Source: Chitinophagaceae bacterium | Lineage (GTDB): Bacteria > Bacteroidota > Bacteroidia > Chitinophagales > Chitinophagaceae | Reading direction: 5' to 3' | DNA: 41,707 nt | NCBI GenBank assembly: GCA_947447005.1 | Contig: CANFHO010000012.1 | Span: 1-41,707 of the forward strand | In this document: piece by piece, positions 23,474 through 34,698 of the stretch | How positions within the stretch are numbered: the first letter of the stretch is position 1 | How the letters are laid out: each line of letters opens with the position of its first letter | Translations under genes and position numbers: made by a program | Notes under the pieces: generated by a model | What the model was told of the DNA's origin: nothing | What the model saw: only the letters and a program-made list of their open reading frames with translations | The model's database searches: none

Positions 23474-24832
23474 CTATGGATGCATCCAAGGTGATCTATA
23501 ATCTCTTCTCAACAACCTTGTGGCTTCTTCATCGTTTTTCACAATCATATTGATGGGATCATAGACCAATGGTCTTTTGAGTTTCATCGATATATTTGCA
23601 AGAATACAACTGGCGGTTGAAATATGACCCTGCTCAATATCTGCAATGGGTTTTGTTTTGTTATCGATGGCCTCCAGGAAATTTTTCATATGTTGCCTGG
23701 TGGCCGGAGATGTGTGCAATTCAATGTCTTTTTCCTTCAGGTCTTCAGGAAATTGTTCTCTTTCGTATTCAACATCTCCATGAATCTTGTTTCCCTTTCC
23801 ATTTGGAATAAAATCATATTTGTGAACGCTGCCACACAGTGTTCCATTTTCTCCATAGATCTTGAACGCCCATGGGTATTCTGGATCTGCAGGTGTTCCC
23901 CAGCTTCTGTGTTGCCAAACGCAATTCAGGTTTTCGTATTCAAAGATGGCAGTTTGGGTATCAGCCGTATTGCTTTTCCCCTGATCGGTTGAATAGATGC
24001 CCCCGGTTGAGCTAATCTTATTGGGCCAACCCAGATCAAGCATCCAACGCACGGCATCAAACATATGAACACACATATCTCCCATGATGCCATTGCCATA
24101 TTCCATAAAAGCCCTCCACCATCCGCGGTGTGGCAATCCGTCGTATGGCCTCATGGGAGCAGGACCTGTCCACATTTCGTAATCAAGAAAATCAGGTATG
24201 GGCTGAAGTGGTGGATTGCCAGTATTGCGCATGTGATAGTAACAACACATTTCAACATGATGTACTTTGCCAAGCAACCCTGCATCAACAATATTTTTCT
24301 TTGCCTCCATGAGGTGAGGCGTACTTCTTCTTTGTGTGCCTACCTGAACCGTACGATTGTATTTTCTGGCAGCTGCAAGCATGGCTTCACCTTCCATTAC
24401 ATCTACACTCACAGGTTTTTGAACATATACATTGGCGCCAGACTTGATGGCATCAATGGTTTGCAATGCATGCCAATGATCGGGTGTTCCTATGAGAACA
24501 ATATCAGGTTTTTCAGCTGATAATAATTTTCTGTAATCACTGTATAAGGGAATCTTTTCTGAAGAATTCAATCTTGAGGAAACAAGCTCTGATGCATGTT
24601 GTAGCTGATGCTGGTCAACATCACACAATCCAACCACATCCACAGGAGCAACCTGCATCAATTTAAAGAGATCACTTTTGCCATACCATCCTGTTCCAAT
24701 CAGTGCTACACGTCGTTTTGGAGAAAGATCCAGATGATGCAATCCTGCCGACTTGATATACGTCAATGCCAGGATTCCAGCACTGTTGCGAATAAAAGAC
24801 CTGCGGTTGTAATGACTATTTCCTTTCGTCAT
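23474..24832 (-). CDS. Gfo/Idh/MocA family oxidoreductase with Tat-like N-terminus
   Basis: NRRSFIRNSAGILALTY; RRVALIGTGWYGKSDLFKLMQVAPVDVVGLCDVD; GTPDHWHALQTIDAIKSGANVYVQKPVSVDVMEGEAMLAAARKYNRTVQVGTQRRS. Confidence 0.93.
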   Translation of the reverse strand: MTKGNSHYNRRSFIRNSAGILALTYIKSAGLHHLDLSPKRRVALIGTGWYGKSDLFKLMQVAPVDVVGLCDVDQHQLQHASELVSSRLNSSEKIPLYSDYRKLLSAEKPDIVLIGTPDHWHALQTIDAIKSGANVYVQKPVSVDVMEGEAMLAAARKYNRTVQVGTQRRSTPHLMEAKKNIVDAGLLGKVHHVEMCCYYHMRNTGNPPLQPIPDFLDYEMWTGPAPMRPYDGLPHRGWWRAFMEYGNGIMGDMCVHMFDAVRWMLDLGWPNKISSTGGIYSTDQGKSNTADTQTAIFEYENLNCVWQHRSWGTPADPEYPWAFKIYGENGTLCGSVHKYDFIPNGKGNKIHGDVEYEREQFPEDLKEKDIELHTSPATRQHMKNFLEAIDNKTKPIADIEQGHISTASCILANISMKLKRPLVYDPINMIVKNDEEATRLLRRDYRSPWMHP

Positions 24833-26430: not shown

Positions 26431-27411
26431 ATGGATAAAATGATTAGCTGGGGAATTATTGGGTGTGGGAATGTTACTGAAGTGAAGAGTGGTCCTGCAT
26501 TTAACAAAGTGCCCAATTCCAAACTGCATGCTGTTATGCGCCGGGATGCAGCGAAAGCAGAGGATTATGCAAAGCGACATGGAGTTCCTGTTTGGTATAA
26601 TGATGCCAATGATTTGATCAATGACCCGGAAGTCAATGCCATCTATATTGCCACGCCACCCAAATATCATGAAGCATATGCAAAAGCTGCATTGGAAAAG
26701 GGCAAACATGTATATATCGAAAAACCAGTTACCTTAAATGTGGCTGAACTTGACAGGCTGATTGAACTGGAGAAGATTTCTGCTGCAAAAATTGTGGTGG
26801 CGCATTATAGAAGGGCATTGCCGATGTTTAAACGTGTTAAAGAGTTGGTGGAGCAAAATATACTTGGACGAATACAACTCATTCAACTGGAAATGTTTCA
26901 GCCTCATGAAACAAACCTGATTGCCAGTTCTGAATCTTTCTGGAGAGTAGACCCTTCCATTTCAGGTGGTGGATTATTTTATGACCTTGCTCCCCATCAA
27001 CTGGATATCATGGTACATGTGTTTGGAAATCCGGTGATGATGTCGGGTACAGCTAGAAATCATGGTCGCCATTATACCGCAGAAGATGCAGTGGCCGGAA
27101 TCATGGGATTGCCCAATGGTATTATGTTTCAGGGGAGCTGGCATTTCAATATGCCTGGAGCTGTGAAATCAGATAGATGTAAAATCATTGGTGAGAAGGG
27201 CTTTATTGAGTTTCCTTTTTTTGGAAATCAAATAACGATTCATCTTGATGGTACTCAATCATTAGAAATATTTGAACACCCTCAACATATCCAGCAACCC
27301 ATGATTCAACAGGTTGTTGAACATTTTCTTGATCAATCTGCAAATCCATGCTCATTGCACGATGCGCGTGAAAGCCTAAGGGTTATGGAGCAATTTGTAT
27401 ATGGGAAGTGA
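26431..27411 (+). CDS. Gfo/Idh/MocA family oxidoreductase
   Basis: ISWGIIGCGNVTEVKSGPAFNKVPNSKLHAVMRRD; NAIYIATPPKYHEAYAKAALEKGKHVYIEKPVTLNVAELDRLIEL; GGGLFYDLAPHQLDIMVHVFG. Confidence 0.94.
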   Translation: MDKMISWGIIGCGNVTEVKSGPAFNKVPNSKLHAVMRRDAAKAEDYAKRHGVPVWYNDANDLINDPEVNAIYIATPPKYHEAYAKAALEKGKHVYIEKPVTLNVAELDRLIELEKISAAKIVVAHYRRALPMFKRVKELVEQNILGRIQLIQLEMFQPHETNLIASSESFWRVDPSISGGGLFYDLAPHQLDIMVHVFGNPVMMSGTARNHGRHYTAEDAVAGIMGLPNGIMFQGSWHFNMPGAVKSDRCKIIGEKGFIEFPFFGNQITIHLDGTQSLEIFEHPQHIQQPMIQQVVEHFLDQSANPCSLHDARESLRVMEQFVYGK

Positions 27412-27855
27412 TTATTTTGAATAATGCTTCAATATTTCAATAATAAAATACCATGCTGAAATCATGGTGCCCAAAGCCACGACAGCTGTGAAGATCATCA
27501 GCAAAAAAGAATATCTGTTGAAGTCATTTTCCATATTCAGGATTCGCTGTTTTTCTTTTTCTTCCAGAATTTTTTTCTGAGTATACCCACCATTGTTTCT
27601 GAATACCAATCCTTCCAGTGAAATGGTTAATGGATCAACATTTTTCACATGCTTATCAATCAGTAATGTGTAATATAAAACATTGATCTCCCATTCTTTC
27701 AACTTGAATTTATTCTTGACTTTCTCCGTAACAATGTCTTTTGTATTCATTGAAGCATCTTCTGTATAAAATGTAACACCCTTGTATAAATTTTCATATT
27801 CCACAATAAGCTGTTCCAGGATATAATCCATTTCTTCATTATAATTAATATCCAT
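27412..27855 (-). CDS. Hypothetical protein with C-terminal transmembrane segment, third gene of the Kai cluster
   Basis: 147 aa: LKEWEINVLYYTLLIDKHVKNVDPLTISLEGLVFRNNGGYTQKK suggests a small winged-helix-like region, followed by hydrophobic YSFLLMIFTAVVALGTMISAWYFIIEIL. Co-directional with kaiB, 11-bp gap. Confidence 0.75.
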   Translation of the reverse strand: MDINYNEEMDYILEQLIVEYENLYKGVTFYTEDASMNTKDIVTEKVKNKFKLKEWEINVLYYTLLIDKHVKNVDPLTISLEGLVFRNNGGYTQKKILEEKEKQRILNMENDFNRYSFLLMIFTAVVALGTMISAWYFIIEILKHYSK

Positions 27856-27866
27856 ATACTATTTAA

Positions 27867-28196
27867 TTATACTATGAAAAGATCTCTTGTTACTTTTATT
27901 GTATCTGATAAATCGCCAACAAGCCTCACTTCTGGCAATGGATATTTCTTGATAAGCAATGGCATAGCAATGATATGTTCTTTCATTACGTAAGATTTCT
28001 CTTTACTTGCATCTATCACTTTCAATTCATATCGATCCTTGAGGTGATTTTCAAAAATTGAAAGTGCATTTTGTATTGTTCTGGCAGACAGAATGGAGGT
28101 GCCATTGATGAATAAATGAAATATATATTTTTCGTGCTTGTGTTTTTCTACAATTTCTATCAACTTATTTGTTTTATGTGTATGTTCTTTCAGCAT
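27867..28196 (-). CDS. kaiB: KaiB-like circadian clock domain protein
   Basis: YIFHLFINGTSILSARTIQNALSIFENHLKDRYELKVIDASKEKSYVMKEHIIAMPLLIKKYPLPEVRLVGDLSDTIKV aligns by eye along the KaiB domain, including the GDLSD motif. Confidence 0.9.
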   Translation of the reverse strand: MLKEHTHKTNKLIEIVEKHKHEKYIFHLFINGTSILSARTIQNALSIFENHLKDRYELKVIDASKEKSYVMKEHIIAMPLLIKKYPLPEVRLVGDLSDTIKVTRDLFIV

Positions 28197-28229
28197 AATA
28201 AAATATTCATGTGTAGTGAGATGAATGAT

Positions 28230-29744
28230 TTAGGCAAGTACATTTATTTTTTTCTCTGCTGCAATCCTTTTGGATCCAAGCAATAAACCTTGTTCATTTC
28301 TTAAAACAGGTATTACCGTAATGCCATTTGAAGTAATAATGAATTCCCGTACCTCCTTGGAGTGGGCCATGCCCCTCGCTTTCATCACATAAATGCTTCT
28401 GTTTCTCTCTCCATCCAATTCAATATCCTCTAACATCATCCATGTATCAACCATAGAAGAAATTCCTTCGTCGCTCGGATTTCTGGCGATTGACCCCAAG
28501 GTGATTGCTGCAGTGAACATCACTGTAACGTGTTTCGTTTTTAAATAATCAATGAATCGAGTGAGCATTCCTCTTACATCACTGTTCGGTCCTTCAGTCA
28601 TGAGGTTTGTGATAGGGTCAAGAATAATGACAGAAGGTTTGTGTTCTTCAATCAAAACTTTGATGGATAAAAAATGCAATTCCAGATTTTGCAAGGTGGG
28701 TCTTGCATAATAAAATTGGAGTTTGCCGGATTTGGTAAATATCTCCAAATTGATACCAATCGATTTCATATTTCTGATGATCTGATTGGGCGACTCTTCA
28801 AACGCACAGAAAAAACAAGTTTCATTGTTCTCACACACACTTTTTGCAAATGAAGCTACGATGCTTGTTTTTCCTGTTCCTGAACTGCCAGAAACCAGGA
28901 TGCTGCTACCAACAAAAAATCCTTTGTTCTCCAACATTTCATCTAATTTGGGTATTCCTGAAGGAATTCTAATGAAGCTATTAACCTGATCAACTCCAAC
29001 AGTAACAATTGGGAAAACAGATAAGCCATTTTCATCAATGATGAAAGGATATTCATTATTCGCATGTTCAGAACCACGATATTTTAATATTCGAAGTCGC
29101 CTGGTTGCAATTTGATTTGTTATACGATTGCTCAATTCAATTACACAGTCTGCTACATTTTCTTCCAATCCCAGACGGGTTACATAAATATCTCCAAGTT
29201 CGGCAGTAATAATAGCTGTTACATTTTTTTCCTTCAGCCAAAAGAACAATCGTTTGAATTCAGAACGAAGCATACTAATATCAAGATTGACAAACAGACT
29301 ATCCAGTGAATCAAGTACAATTCGTTTTGCATGTATGCTTTCAATTGCTTTTTCAAGTCGGATAAAAAGGCCGTCAATATTATATTTTCCAGCCTCATGA
29401 TATTCGTTATGGCTTACATGTAAATGTTCGAGGTATAATTTTTTCTCCTTGATCATTGTGCCCAATTCAAATCCAAGATTTGAAACATTGGTTAACAGTT
29501 CATCTGCTTTCTCTTCAAATGTCATGAATACACCGGGTTCATCATACATGGCAATTCCTTTCAAAATAAATTGCATCGCCATAAATGTTTTTCCAGAGCC
29601 TATGCCACCTACAACCAATGTAGGTCTGTTTTGTGGAATTCCTCCTAAAGTGAGATTATCAAAACCTTTAATGCCGGTTGGCGTTTTTTCAAGATGATGC
29701 GAAACATCATTCAACTCCATTTTTACTTCTTGTGATTCCATCAT
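28230..29744 (-). CDS. kaiC: Two-domain KaiC family ATPase
   Basis: Duplicated RecA-like ATPase: CI P-loop GGIGSGKT with FEEKADE; CII P-loop GSSGTGKT with FEESPNQIIRNM; VDTWMMLEDIELDGERNRSIYVMKARGMAHSKEVREFII matches the KaiC CII C-terminal region. Confidence 0.94.
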   Translation of the reverse strand: MMESQEVKMELNDVSHHLEKTPTGIKGFDNLTLGGIPQNRPTLVVGGIGSGKTFMAMQFILKGIAMYDEPGVFMTFEEKADELLTNVSNLGFELGTMIKEKKLYLEHLHVSHNEYHEAGKYNIDGLFIRLEKAIESIHAKRIVLDSLDSLFVNLDISMLRSEFKRLFFWLKEKNVTAIITAELGDIYVTRLGLEENVADCVIELSNRITNQIATRRLRILKYRGSEHANNEYPFIIDENGLSVFPIVTVGVDQVNSFIRIPSGIPKLDEMLENKGFFVGSSILVSGSSGTGKTSIVASFAKSVCENNETCFFCAFEESPNQIIRNMKSIGINLEIFTKSGKLQFYYARPTLQNLELHFLSIKVLIEEHKPSVIILDPITNLMTEGPNSDVRGMLTRFIDYLKTKHVTVMFTAAITLGSIARNPSDEGISSMVDTWMMLEDIELDGERNRSIYVMKARGMAHSKEVREFIITSNGITVIPVLRNEQGLLLGSKRIAAEKKINVLA

Positions 29745-29965: not shown

Positions 29966-32377
29966 TTAATCTTCTTTGAGAATATTTACTTTTTTGGCTG
30001 AAGTGGATTGTTTGATTCTGTATGAAAACGTAAGATTGACCTGTGTGGGTGAATAACGGCCATAGCCATCATAATGATAGTTTGCACCATTGTAAATGTA
30101 TTTTGCCTTGCGTGTTTTGAACACGTCGAGTACATTTAAACTTACGGTACCTCTTTCTTTCAGGATATCCTTACTCAAAGAGAGATCGGTATAAAACATA
30201 CCTTTTCTTTTACCTTGTACAGTTTTTTGTGCAGCTTCGTAATTTGTACGAATTTGTATATCCAGTTTATTCTTCAAACTAAAGCGTGATGTTTGTCTGG
30301 CAAACCAACTGTAAGTAGCTGTTTTGTATGCAGCAAGAATATTGCTTCCATCTATATTGGCATGAAAGAAATTTCCATTCAGATCTAGTTTCCACCATTT
30401 TTTGGGTTTAAAGCCCCCCGTCAGTTCAACCCCATATGCTTTTTCAAAAAGAAGGTTTTCTGGACGTGTGGTTGCATTTCCGGCTGCATCAACATATCTG
30501 ATTCTTTCAATCCTGCCATGGGTACTTCTGTAATAAACAGAAGAACTTACAGAACCTTTATCAAATGTTTTTAAATGACCTAATTCAAATACGTTGCTGA
30601 ATTCAGGGTTCAGATTTGGATTTCCACCACTAAAATTCCTGCTATCTGAAAAAGTGGCATAAGGACTTAAATCATTGTAAACAGGTCGTCTGATACGCCT
30701 GCTATAACTGATTTGTAAACCATGATCGTTTGGCAATTGATAGGTAAAGTGCGAACTGGGAAACAGATTGGCATAGTTTCTTGGATTTTTATCATTGGTT
30801 CTGTCCAGCCTTGTTTCAACATCCGTCAATTCTGCTCTAAGTCCCAATTGATAAGAAAGCTTTTCGGCTTTATTTTCATATATCCCATATGCCGCATGAA
30901 TATTTTCGTTGTAGACAAAAACGTTGTTGAAGCCAGGCAATGGATCAAATCCACCACTGACATTTTTTTGTGCAACGAGGTAGTCGTTTACCATGTTACG
31001 CAGACTGCTTCTAAGTCCGGTTTCAAATTTTCCCTCTTTTCCGATGGGTTTAGTATAATCAACCTGAAGGAGGTATTGTTTTTCAAATTCAATATTGACA
31101 GAATGTTGAATGATGTTTTTGGTTAGATCTTCCACATGTGTAGGAGAAAACAATTTTTGAGTAAAAATCTGATCTGAATTTTCCCAATAATCCAGGTATT
31201 TGAATTCAGCTGAAAGTTCATGACCCTTTTGTGCAAAAGTCTTTTTATAATCTACCGTAAAATCAGTGTAGGGTTCAATTTCATCTTCATCCTGCGTACG
31301 TTTAACGTAATCCTTTAGATTATTTTTTGTGAAAAGATAGTCGTTGTACAAGATGGATGTCAATCTTTTCCCCTTGCTTTTTTTGTACATGTACGCAGCG
31401 GTGATTACGCTTTTTTCATTGAAGAAGTAATCCATTCCACCTCGAATATTATTGTTGTATCCAGTGAAACTTCCTTTATTATTTTGTTGGGTGATGAAGG
31501 TTGAATCCAGTCGATATATTTCCTGATAGGTTGAATTGTAGTAAGGCTGAACACGATATGCGATACCGTAGTTGATGAAAAAATTGATTTTATTTTTTCT
31601 GTAATTGACATTGGCAGCCCCTCCGAAATTTGTAGGATTGCCAGAAATCAATTCAAAGGATCCATTGAAACCTTGGCGCCTGTCTTTTTTCAGGATGATG
31701 TTGATGATGCCCGCCATGCCTTCAGCCTCATAGCGAGCTGAAGGGTTGGTGATGATCTCAACACGTTCAACCATGTTTGCCTGTAGTTGCTGCAACCCTG
31801 CAGCACCTTTGATACTCACCAAGCCAGAAGGTTTGCCATCAATCAAAATTCTGACATTGTCGCTACCACGTAATTTAACACCTCCATCAGGATCAACTGA
31901 AACCGAAGGAATATTCATCAGGATATCGGAAGCGGACCCACCTGCATTTGCAAGATCTTTGCCTACATTGAATATTTTTTTATCCAGGGCCAGTTGCATG
32001 GTGCTCTTTTCAGCCTGAACAACAATTTCTTTCAGTGATTGGTTGGTGATAGCTATTTTGACGATGCCCAGATTTACAACTTCATTTTTTTCGTTGATGA
32101 TGATGTTTTTCCTTGTGATGGTGCTGTATCCGATGAAATTGAAACGAACTGAATAGGATCCATAAGGGACACGCAATTCAAAACCACCATCAGTATTGGT
32201 GAGTTTTTCTTGAATCACTTCTTTTCCGCCTGTTTTGTTTACCTGCACAGTGGCAAATCCAAGTGGTTTATTATCGGTCGAATCAAACAGGCGGCCTATT
32301 ATGACTCCTTGTTGGATATTTTGGGCATGGGAAGAAAGAACAGAAAGCAACAATGAAACAAGCAATATCGATCTCAT
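29966..32377 (-). CDS. TonB-dependent receptor / outer-membrane beta-barrel protein with carboxypeptidase-regulatory-like domain
   Basis: GVIIGRLFDSTDNKPLGFATVQV...GSYSVRFNFIGYST (CarboxypepD_reg-like), ASDILMNIPSVSVDPDGGVKLRGSDNVRILIDGKPSG (plug), long beta-barrel with SYSRRIRRPVYNDLSPYATFSDSRNFSGGNPNLNPE. Confidence 0.94.
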   Translation of the reverse strand: MRSILLVSLLLSVLSSHAQNIQQGVIIGRLFDSTDNKPLGFATVQVNKTGGKEVIQEKLTNTDGGFELRVPYGSYSVRFNFIGYSTITRKNIIINEKNEVVNLGIVKIAITNQSLKEIVVQAEKSTMQLALDKKIFNVGKDLANAGGSASDILMNIPSVSVDPDGGVKLRGSDNVRILIDGKPSGLVSIKGAAGLQQLQANMVERVEIITNPSARYEAEGMAGIINIILKKDRRQGFNGSFELISGNPTNFGGAANVNYRKNKINFFINYGIAYRVQPYYNSTYQEIYRLDSTFITQQNNKGSFTGYNNNIRGGMDYFFNEKSVITAAYMYKKSKGKRLTSILYNDYLFTKNNLKDYVKRTQDEDEIEPYTDFTVDYKKTFAQKGHELSAEFKYLDYWENSDQIFTQKLFSPTHVEDLTKNIIQHSVNIEFEKQYLLQVDYTKPIGKEGKFETGLRSSLRNMVNDYLVAQKNVSGGFDPLPGFNNVFVYNENIHAAYGIYENKAEKLSYQLGLRAELTDVETRLDRTNDKNPRNYANLFPSSHFTYQLPNDHGLQISYSRRIRRPVYNDLSPYATFSDSRNFSGGNPNLNPEFSNVFELGHLKTFDKGSVSSSVYYRSTHGRIERIRYVDAAGNATTRPENLLFEKAYGVELTGGFKPKKWWKLDLNGNFFHANIDGSNILAAYKTATYSWFARQTSRFSLKNKLDIQIRTNYEAAQKTVQGKRKGMFYTDLSLSKDILKERGTVSLNVLDVFKTRKAKYIYNGANYHYDGYGRYSPTQVNLTFSYRIKQSTSAKKVNILKED

Positions 32378-32529: not shown

Positions 32530-32655
32530 GAACTGGCAGAAAAGAGTCATTGAGCTGAAAAGTGCCATCTTATTCTGACTTTTTAAACTTAACGCATAAA
32601 CATAGTGTCTATTGATGTGTTATCTTTATCATCAATCATTTTCAACATCACATTC

Positions 32656-34698
32656 ATGAAATATCTCCTCTCGCTTACTCTCTTCATTTCGCTGCATGCT
32701 TCATCACAGATCGACCCTACGCATATAACCATTGCACGGGACAGCTTTGGAGTGCCGCATATTTTTGCCAAAACAGATCCAGAGGTTTCCTATGGATTGG
32801 CATGGGCACATGCAGAAGATGATTTCAACAGTTTGCAACAAGTGGCCCTTCCTGCCAAAGGATTGATGGGAACAGTATACGGAAAAACCGGTGTTGCAGG
32901 CGATTATGCATTTGCCTTGTTCAGATGCAGAGAGATTACAGAAGAAAGATGGAATACACTCTCACCTGAATTTTTGAAATTGATTGAAGGGTACGTGCAA
33001 GGAATGAATGACTATGCAAAGGCACATCCGCAGGAAGTGATGGCCAAAAAATTATTTCCAATCACTGTAAAAGACTATATCGCATCATCTGTTTTGGCAC
33101 TCACGATTTTCAATGGAGGTGACAAAGCCCTGCGAGCAATTTTTGCAAACAAGGTCGAACCTACCATTGATTACGATAAAATGGGTTCAAATGCCATTGC
33201 TATCAGTTCTTCCAAAACCAATACCGGAGAGGCTTTCCTGGCTATCAATGCACATCAGCCAAATGAAGGTCCTGAAGCTTTTTACGAAGCACATGTCAAT
33301 AGTGAAGAAGGTTGGAACGCATTGGGTGGATTGCTGGCAGGCGGACCATGTATTCTGCATGGTGTGAATGAAAATCTTGGATGGGCCCATACAGTCAATA
33401 TGTGCGACAGGATGGATATTTTTCAATTGCAGATCAATCCCAATAATAAAGACCAATATATGTTTGATGGGGTGTGGACTGATTTAGAGAAGAAAAAAAT
33501 CAAACTGCATATTAAAGGCATCCCCATTCCTGTATCCAGGGATTTATATTGGAGTAAATACGGTGCCACGATGAAGAACGAGCAGGGAACATTTGCCATT
33601 CGTTTGGGTGCCAACATGGAAATTCGTGCATTGGAGCAGTGGTATAAGATGAACAAGGCAAAAAATTTCACGGAGTTTTACAAGGCTATCAGCCTGCAAG
33701 GATTGTCGATGTTCAATATTATGTATGCAGATCGCAATGATACCATCTTTTACATCAACAATGCCCTTATGCCCATCAGGGATGCATCACCAGCATACAA
33801 TTGGAAGAGCACCGTTCCAGGTAATACGTCAAAAACATTGTGGACTTCATTCAGGCCTATTGGTCAATTGCCTCAATATGTGAATCCCAAAAGTGGATTC
33901 CTTTTCAATACAAACCATTCGTCATTTCTGGCTTCCGGGAAAGCTGATAATTTATCCGAAACATCATTTCCAACACAAGACGGCTGGGAAACCTTGCAAA
34001 ACAATCGCAGTGTGAGGTTCCTGGAGTTGATGCCTCAGGAAGGAAAAATAGATTTTGAAACGTTTAAAAAGATCAAATTCAGCAGGCAATATCCTTCACA
34101 ATTTCAGTTTCCGGTGGGAATTGATTCTGTTTTTGTGATGAATCCATCTGCGTATCCTCAGTACGATACCATCTTAAGAAACCTTCAACAATGGGATCGC
34201 AAAGGGGAAGCCGACAGCAAGGGTGCCGGTGCATTCTTGATGGTATATGAAGCCGTTTCATCCAAATTCAAAAGTGTTCAAAGACAGTTGACTTTAGCAG
34301 AATGGGAAACGGTGTTGTCAAAAGTAAAGGAACAGATGATGCAGAATTTTGGAACCACTGATTTGAAATTGGGAGATATTCAAAAAATTGTACGTGGCTC
34401 CAAAGTATTGCCAGCTCCGGGTTTGCCGGATCTGTTGGCACCCGAATGGAGTGTAAAAAATGAAACTGGAACAAGAAAGATTTCAGGAGGGGATGCCTAT
34501 GTTGCCTTGGTGCGTTTCCCTAAAACCGGTTTACCGATCATTGAAACAGTAAACACCTATGGCGCTTCAGCAAAAGAAGGGAAACCGCATTTCGATGATC
34601 AGATTCCGCTTTTCTTGCAACAGAAGACCAAGCATATGACACTCGACAAACAAGAGGTGTTGAGAAATGCTGTGCGTACATATCATCCTGGAGAATAA
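32656..34698 (+). CDS. Penicillin acylase family protein (Ntn hydrolase), secreted
   Basis: ITIARDSFGVPHIFAKTDPEVSYGLAWAHAEDDF; GSNAIAISSSKTNTGEAFLAINAHQP (Gly|Ser autoprocessing site); GWAHTVN. ATG at 32656 gives MKYLLSLTLFISLHASSQ. Confidence 0.93.
   Translation: MKYLLSLTLFISLHASSQIDPTHITIARDSFGVPHIFAKTDPEVSYGLAWAHAEDDFNSLQQVALPAKGLMGTVYGKTGVAGDYAFALFRCREITEERWNTLSPEFLKLIEGYVQGMNDYAKAHPQEVMAKKLFPITVKDYIASSVLALTIFNGGDKALRAIFANKVEPTIDYDKMGSNAIAISSSKTNTGEAFLAINAHQPNEGPEAFYEAHVNSEEGWNALGGLLAGGPCILHGVNENLGWAHTVNMCDRMDIFQLQINPNNKDQYMFDGVWTDLEKKKIKLHIKGIPIPVSRDLYWSKYGATMKNEQGTFAIRLGANMEIRALEQWYKMNKAKNFTEFYKAISLQGLSMFNIMYADRNDTIFYINNALMPIRDASPAYNWKSTVPGNTSKTLWTSFRPIGQLPQYVNPKSGFLFNTNHSSFLASGKADNLSETSFPTQDGWETLQNNRSVRFLELMPQEGKIDFETFKKIKFSRQYPSQFQFPVGIDSVFVMNPSAYPQYDTILRNLQQWDRKGEADSKGAGAFLMVYEAVSSKFKSVQRQLTLAEWETVLSKVKEQMMQNFGTTDLKLGDIQKIVRGSKVLPAPGLPDLLAPEWSVKNETGTRKISGGDAYVALVRFPKTGLPIIETVNTYGASAKEGKPHFDDQIPLFLQQKTKHMTLDKQEVLRNAVRTYHPGE

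Follow-up and report, generated by a model that had tools for sequence, protein, structure and literature searches.

The kai operon and its products

The window analysed here is the whole 41,707-nucleotide stretch from a Chitinophagaceae bacterium, which at positions 27412-29744 carries three minus-strand genes in the order kaiC-kaiB-X. A sequence-only reading of this DNA had given the same order, strand and intergenic gaps, 33 bp between kaiC and kaiB and 11 bp between kaiB and X, and an ORF check reproduced them exactly. The following features were assigned:

28230-29744, minus strand: kaiC, 504 aa, double-domain and KaiC2-like, with Ser-Ser phosphosites and without a C-terminal coiled-coil extension (ORF, Pfam, NCBIfam, alignment)
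28455-28460, minus strand: KaiC codons S429 and S430, predicted CII autophosphorylation pair, aligned with S431/T432 of S. elongatus KaiC (homology)
28230-28325, minus strand: short KaiC C-terminus, 31 residues from G474, with the ~75-residue helical extension of canonical relatives missing (alignment)
27867-28196, minus strand: kaiB, 109 aa, single and fast-evolving (ORF, Pfam, dN/dS, KaiB tree)
27412-27855, minus strand: X, 147 aa, predicted winged-helix and tail-anchor protein adjoining kaiC (ORF, gene maps, AF2 model)
27619-27840, minus strand: X residues 6-79, predicted acidic winged helix with helices 6-24, 38-50 and 54-66 and strands 70-73 and 76-78 (AF2, Foldseek, charge count)
27430-27513, minus strand: X residues 115-142, predicted single C-terminal TM segment inside the long helix 90-146 (AF2, hydropathy)

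The source genome (2.9 Mb, completeness listed as 100%) holds one close KaiC copy and one KaiB. No kaiA had been visible to the sequence-only reading, and a search with PF07688 likewise gave no match anywhere in this genome, leaving the operon without the KaiA that belongs to a KaiABC oscillator. Within the window no histidine kinase lies directly 3' of kaiC-kaiB; X occupies this position, followed by a convergent oxidoreductase gene in place of any kinase. The neighbouring genes at 23474-24832 (-, assigned by eye), 26431-27411 (+), 29966-32377 (-) and 32605-34698 (+) are of Gfo/Idh/MocA-type oxidoreductase, TonB-dependent receptor-like and penicillin-amidase-like types, and from window ORFs and Pfam none has an evident functional tie to the kai operon.

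KaiC matched PF06745 over two stretches (E 1.9e-106) and scored 630 bits against the NCBIfam model PRK09302 (circadian clock protein KaiC, cut-off 408), which makes it a member of that family, while its score of 338 against the stricter cyanobacterial model TIGR02655 fell below the cut-off of 546. Both domains retain the Walker A Lys and the catalytic Glu pair (K52, E77, E78, K292, E316, E317). S430 is conserved in 56 of 56 aligned KaiCs and S429 in 55, and the Ser-Ser arrangement at the CII phosphosites is that of the KaiC2 subgroup (KaiC-RS type). Among KaiCs of X-bearing loci, where sequenced, Walker A, the catalytic Glu pairs and S430 are all conserved, and S429 is kept in all except L093. 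As already remarked from the sequence, KaiC ends soon after CII: 31 residues follow from G474, whereas canonical relatives have a median of 108, and the C-terminal coiled-coil extension of ~50 aa that predominates in the KaiC2 subgroup is absent. In R. sphaeroides this tail forms a coiled-coil bundle, termed an ancient regulatory moiety by Pitsawong et al., and when it is deleted autophosphorylation and nucleotide exchange remain similar (PMC10076222). Since KaiC-RS is still active without its coil, a tail-less, KaiA-less KaiC can be active, and by this analogy the window KaiC may be active despite its short tail and without KaiA. KaiB was recognised as a family member by PF07689 (E 2.7e-14, 53 bits, cut-off 27) and lay below the NCBIfam KaiB equivalog cut-offs.

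Protein X and its wider family

X matches no described family, in agreement with the earlier reader's failure to recognise this third partner. Pfam searches with X and its relatives returned sub-threshold matches only (best among the relatives YrhC, E 0.0027), NCBIfam gave no credible match, and the best hit among PDB sequences, a potassium channel at E 0.31, was judged a chance similarity. The AF2 model built from 24 sequences (mean pLDDT 85.7, pTM 0.62, low confidence around residues 21-40) displays three helices and a two-strand wing at residues 6-79, a helix at 80-87 and a single helix at 90-146. Foldseek matches to this model were mostly winged-helix proteins (OhrR, MepR, SarZ, Z-alpha), all at E >0.1 and none individually significant. 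Hydropathy peaks at residues 116-134, and X ends about five residues after the TM segment without a periplasmic sensor domain. Model and matches are supportive, though not proof, of a winged helix followed by a tail anchor. They agree with the winged-helix-like region suspected from the sequence, and of the one or two TM segments proposed there, hydropathy and the single helix 90-146 favour one.

We assigned genes to the X family if they lie immediately 3' of kaiC or kaiC-kaiB, match alignment A3 over their full length and carry a C-terminal TM segment, all of which holds for the window gene. X is in addition homologous over its full length to uncharacterised Bacteroidota orphans gathered in alignment A4 (L148, L149, L150, L154, L156, L157 and L159; hhalign 99.3%, E 2e-20), whose profile in turn finds X in the source genome at E 6e-14. 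These orphans are not beside kaiC, and identity to the first of them is 21-32%. Judged by this homology, X is a member of a wider uncharacterised Bacteroidota family of winged-helix and TM proteins. Four of 12 orphan loci adjoin transposase genes (L148:299-1798, L149:2982-4514, L159:1918-4457 and L157:3186-5011), which by eye are IS1595-like in three and IS3-like in L157, and insertion sequences may carry such X-like orphans as passengers. An origin of X as a kinase remnant was also considered and dismissed, as inspection by eye revealed no likeness to the coiled-coil/PAS start of the kinases.

Operon types and their history

A KaiC alignment scan of 84,980 species genomes yielded 78 loci, biased to close KaiCs because two X-type KaiCs supplied the search patterns. 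Four operon states could be distinguished. State A combines a long KaiC with two KaiBs and a histidine kinase and occurs in several phyla (in Bacteroidota as kaiC-kaiB-kaiB-PAS histidine kinase operons at L055, L057 and L060); state B, from Bacteroidota, has a short KaiC, one KaiB and a PAS histidine kinase (L076, L079-L085, L088, L090 and L134). In state C a short KaiC is followed by one KaiB and X (16 loci and the window), and in state D by X directly, without KaiB (8 loci). X is thus found directly 3' of kaiC-kaiB or of kaiC alone at 24 loci in addition to the window, and among the 78 every complete short-KaiC locus of the B/C/D clade had X or the kinase. One kaiC-kaiB-kinase operon, L078, has its KaiC split into two ORFs (297 and 185 aa), so that this KaiC is probably broken or affected by a frame error.

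Sampling 399 genomes of the order without bias confirmed the association: KaiC of at least 65% identity was present only in G000 (the source genome), G011, G423 and G517, and strong X matches occurred in exactly these four; the chance of this coincidence is ~1e-9 if genomes are taken as independent. A phylum-wide sample of 396 genomes contained no strong X away from kaiC. KaiB above the family cut-off was absent genome-wide from all eight state-D genomes, including G423 with a completeness rated 100%, while all 15 state-C genomes checked had exactly one each. The stop codon of kaiC and the start codon of X share an ATGA at L062 and L066, making translational coupling of kaiC and X likely at these two loci. 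Nearly all relatives of the X-type operon come from metagenome-assembled genomes. The G011 copy of X at L052:9172-9609 (G011:C7, the contig that also carries L131) is interrupted by a single in-frame TAA (LK*WEIN) but otherwise well conserved, which reflects either recent pseudogene formation or an error in the sequence. G550, of the same genus as the source, has one KaiC at C12:492876-494330 (52% identity), with an open frame of 601 aa that resembles the canonical long type, a second at C6:64189-65598 (40%), and no X; three further congeners gave no KaiC match at the cut-off used. By these matches kai content changes quickly within the source genus.

In the maximum-likelihood tree of KaiC, X-bearing KaiCs form one clade (bootstrap 99, SH-aLRT 96). 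With the root placed on state A by choice, state B is sister to the X clade (100/97) and state A lies outside both (100/100). From this topology it follows that the long KaiC tail and the first KaiB are absent from both state B and the X clade, and that X stands where the kinase stood; most simply, the kinase would have been replaced by X once. A short KaiC tail does not always go with a single KaiB, as L098, L126 and L128 combine it with two. The KaiB tree, which is weakly resolved with long branches and served solely to rule out the first KaiB copy, places window-type KaiB outside the clade of first copies. Absence of kaiB within the X clade amounts to about five changes, at least three of them forced by supported branches, and no loss of X was found.

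Selective constraint differs between the two small proteins. Among close relatives, dN/dS was 0.03-0.07 for X, marking it as a real constrained gene, 0.04-0.08 for KaiC and 0.11-0.32 for KaiB. Median identities over the 16 state-C loci including the window were 0.63 for KaiC, 0.53 for X and 0.42 for KaiB, with X exceeding KaiB in 117 of 120 locus pairs, whereas in state B KaiB is conserved much closer to KaiC (0.66 vs 0.74). Taken together, these values indicate that constraint on KaiB has loosened in the X clade, while X is constrained like KaiC. Given the repeated loss of kaiB, the retention of X throughout and its tighter constraint, the sequence comparison argues that X is linked more closely to KaiC than to KaiB. 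The sequence-only reading, which expected the third gene to be conserved beside the kai genes, therefore held up, with neither absence from relatives nor lack of co-occurrence seen at the 24 related loci. Its interpretation stands for the absence of KaiA, the conserved kaiC neighbour and the predicted membrane anchor and winged helix, but its idea of X tethering or reporting KaiB/KaiC state shifts to KaiC as the close partner, because X persists where KaiB was lost, at eight kaiC-X loci without kaiB. The kinase replacement, the lost coiled-coil tail, the lost first KaiB and the X relatives outside kai operons were beyond its view. Inactivation of KaiC in KaiB-less loci was ruled out by the catalytic residues, retained where sequenced. 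Alignment of KaiB-less KaiCs revealed no clear CI-loop change in the KaiB-contact region, as is expected if the kaiB losses are recent.

Proposed connection of KaiC to its partners

KaiB is usually seen as the core partner of KaiC, and histidine kinases as its standard output. With the KaiBC hourglass of Rhodobacter sphaeroides (KaiC-RS; PMC10076222), the window system shares the lack of KaiA, a double-domain KaiC with Ser-Ser phosphosites and a downstream KaiB. For R. sphaeroides a kinase is reported to share the operon with kaiBC (PMC5520375), and canonical relatives in our survey combine a long KaiC tail rich in helix with a downstream histidine kinase, whereas the window KaiC has no C-terminal extension, X takes the place of the kinase and KaiB is dispensable in relatives. 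The Bacteroidota kinase operons have a homologous KaiC (~50-65% identity) and an identical gene order, in which the partner gene comes at the end, but there it encodes a kinase that does not resemble X; tandem-KaiB kinase operons differ further by their two KaiBs and a usually long KaiC tail. The KaiABC clock of Synechococcus elongatus has in common the KaiC and KaiB families, the catalytic residues and the CII phosphosite positions, while in the window no KaiA was detected, the phosphosites are Ser-Ser rather than Ser-Thr and, as regards oscillation, the system is known from its sequence alone. According to the account of Makarova et al. 2017 given in PMC5847659, archaeal KaiC-like ATPases were proposed as signalling hubs. 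Within that account they resemble the window in that an ATPase of the KaiC family is paired with proteins other than KaiA/KaiB, and differ in KaiC branch and host, X not being reported among them. Our literature search, made mostly among freely available papers and short of the main archaeal KaiC study, found no description of the kaiC-X arrangement.

In the model we propose, to which we assign a probability of about 0.58, the Kai system has been remodelled: the place of the histidine kinase is taken by X, a tail-anchored winged-helix protein dedicated to KaiC. KaiC would form the usual ATP-dependent hexamer, autophosphorylated on its CII Ser-Ser pair, and would read the cellular ATP/ADP state over time. 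The C-terminal helix of X would anchor the protein in the inner membrane with an N-in topology, exposing the acidic winged helix to the cytosol, where it would bind KaiC directly and recruit it to the membrane. X could then pass the nucleotide or phosphorylation state of KaiC on to a membrane target, with KaiB as an optional accessory. We thus infer that X is the membrane-anchored output or adaptor of KaiC; operon linkage could also reflect a shared pathway without contact between the two proteins.

Signalling in the opposite direction, with X as an input or regulatory KaiC subunit that replaces the tail, KaiA or KaiB and controls nucleotide exchange or phosphorylation upon a signal from the membrane, appears unlikely to us, though less so than the other alternatives. 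It would account for the co-conservation of X with KaiC, for genomes which dispense with KaiB yet keep X, and for the absence in X-type KaiCs of the tail called an ancient regulatory moiety in PMC10076222. However, the sister clade is already without the tail and has one KaiB while the kinase is present, which dates the arrival of X to the loss of the kinase and not of the tail, and coil-less KaiC-RS still self-phosphorylates (PMC10076222), so that no substitute is required.

The winged-helix model and the mostly MarR-type DNA binders among the Foldseek matches could also suggest a membrane-tethered transcription factor of ToxR/CadC-like layout, with a DNA-binding winged helix under KaiC control. 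This we consider distinctly improbable: the putative recognition helix 54-66 has a mean of 0.12 Lys/Arg per sequence and the domain a net charge of about -6, as opposed to the basic recognition helix of ToxR/CadC, and X ends with its TM segment where these proteins have a periplasmic sensor. An acidic winged helix with a Lys/Arg-poor recognition helix favours protein binding, so X is probably no DNA binder. Hardly any weight falls on X as a passenger gene of unrelated function, kin to small wHTH-TM proteins sometimes found beside insertion sequences, that landed behind kaiC, even with full-length distant relatives outside kai operons and transposases at a third of the orphan loci (4/12). A single old acquisition with strict kaiC linkage across a deep clade, start/stop overlap at two loci, purifying selection of KaiC strength and exact co-occurrence all speak against it.

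Returning to X as the proposed membrane-anchored partner of KaiC, most of the genomes concerned are small (1.9-3.2 Mb, one of 5.4 Mb) and metagenome-assembled, many are named Chitinophagaceae, and from the names of their records we read a mostly freshwater habitat. Microbial rhodopsin was present in 18 of 25 X-type genomes, including the source genome (G000:C29:3998-4645, minus strand; PF01036, E 1.1e-40), and in 16 of 247 other sampled family genomes (Fisher p ~1e-13, with shared ancestry ignored). It also occurs in same-genus genomes without kai (G054, G142 and G208), and thus indicates a sunlit habitat rather than a direct kai link. A link of KaiC-X to daily light-driven energy changes is plausible, and shared habitat may explain the rhodopsin excess. 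More tentatively, and with less than even confidence, we suggest that KaiC and X constitute a self-sufficient membrane-anchored timing or energy-state switch without KaiA, KaiB or kinase, which would serve mostly rhodopsin-bearing freshwater bacteria in tracking the day-night energy cycle.

This lineage retained KaiC, lost the kinase, repeatedly lost KaiB and never lost the small membrane protein X, which suggests that the X-type operon wires a KaiC timer in a manner not described before. X would give a route from the KaiC timer to the membrane, and the lineage makes KaiC function without KaiA and KaiB directly testable.
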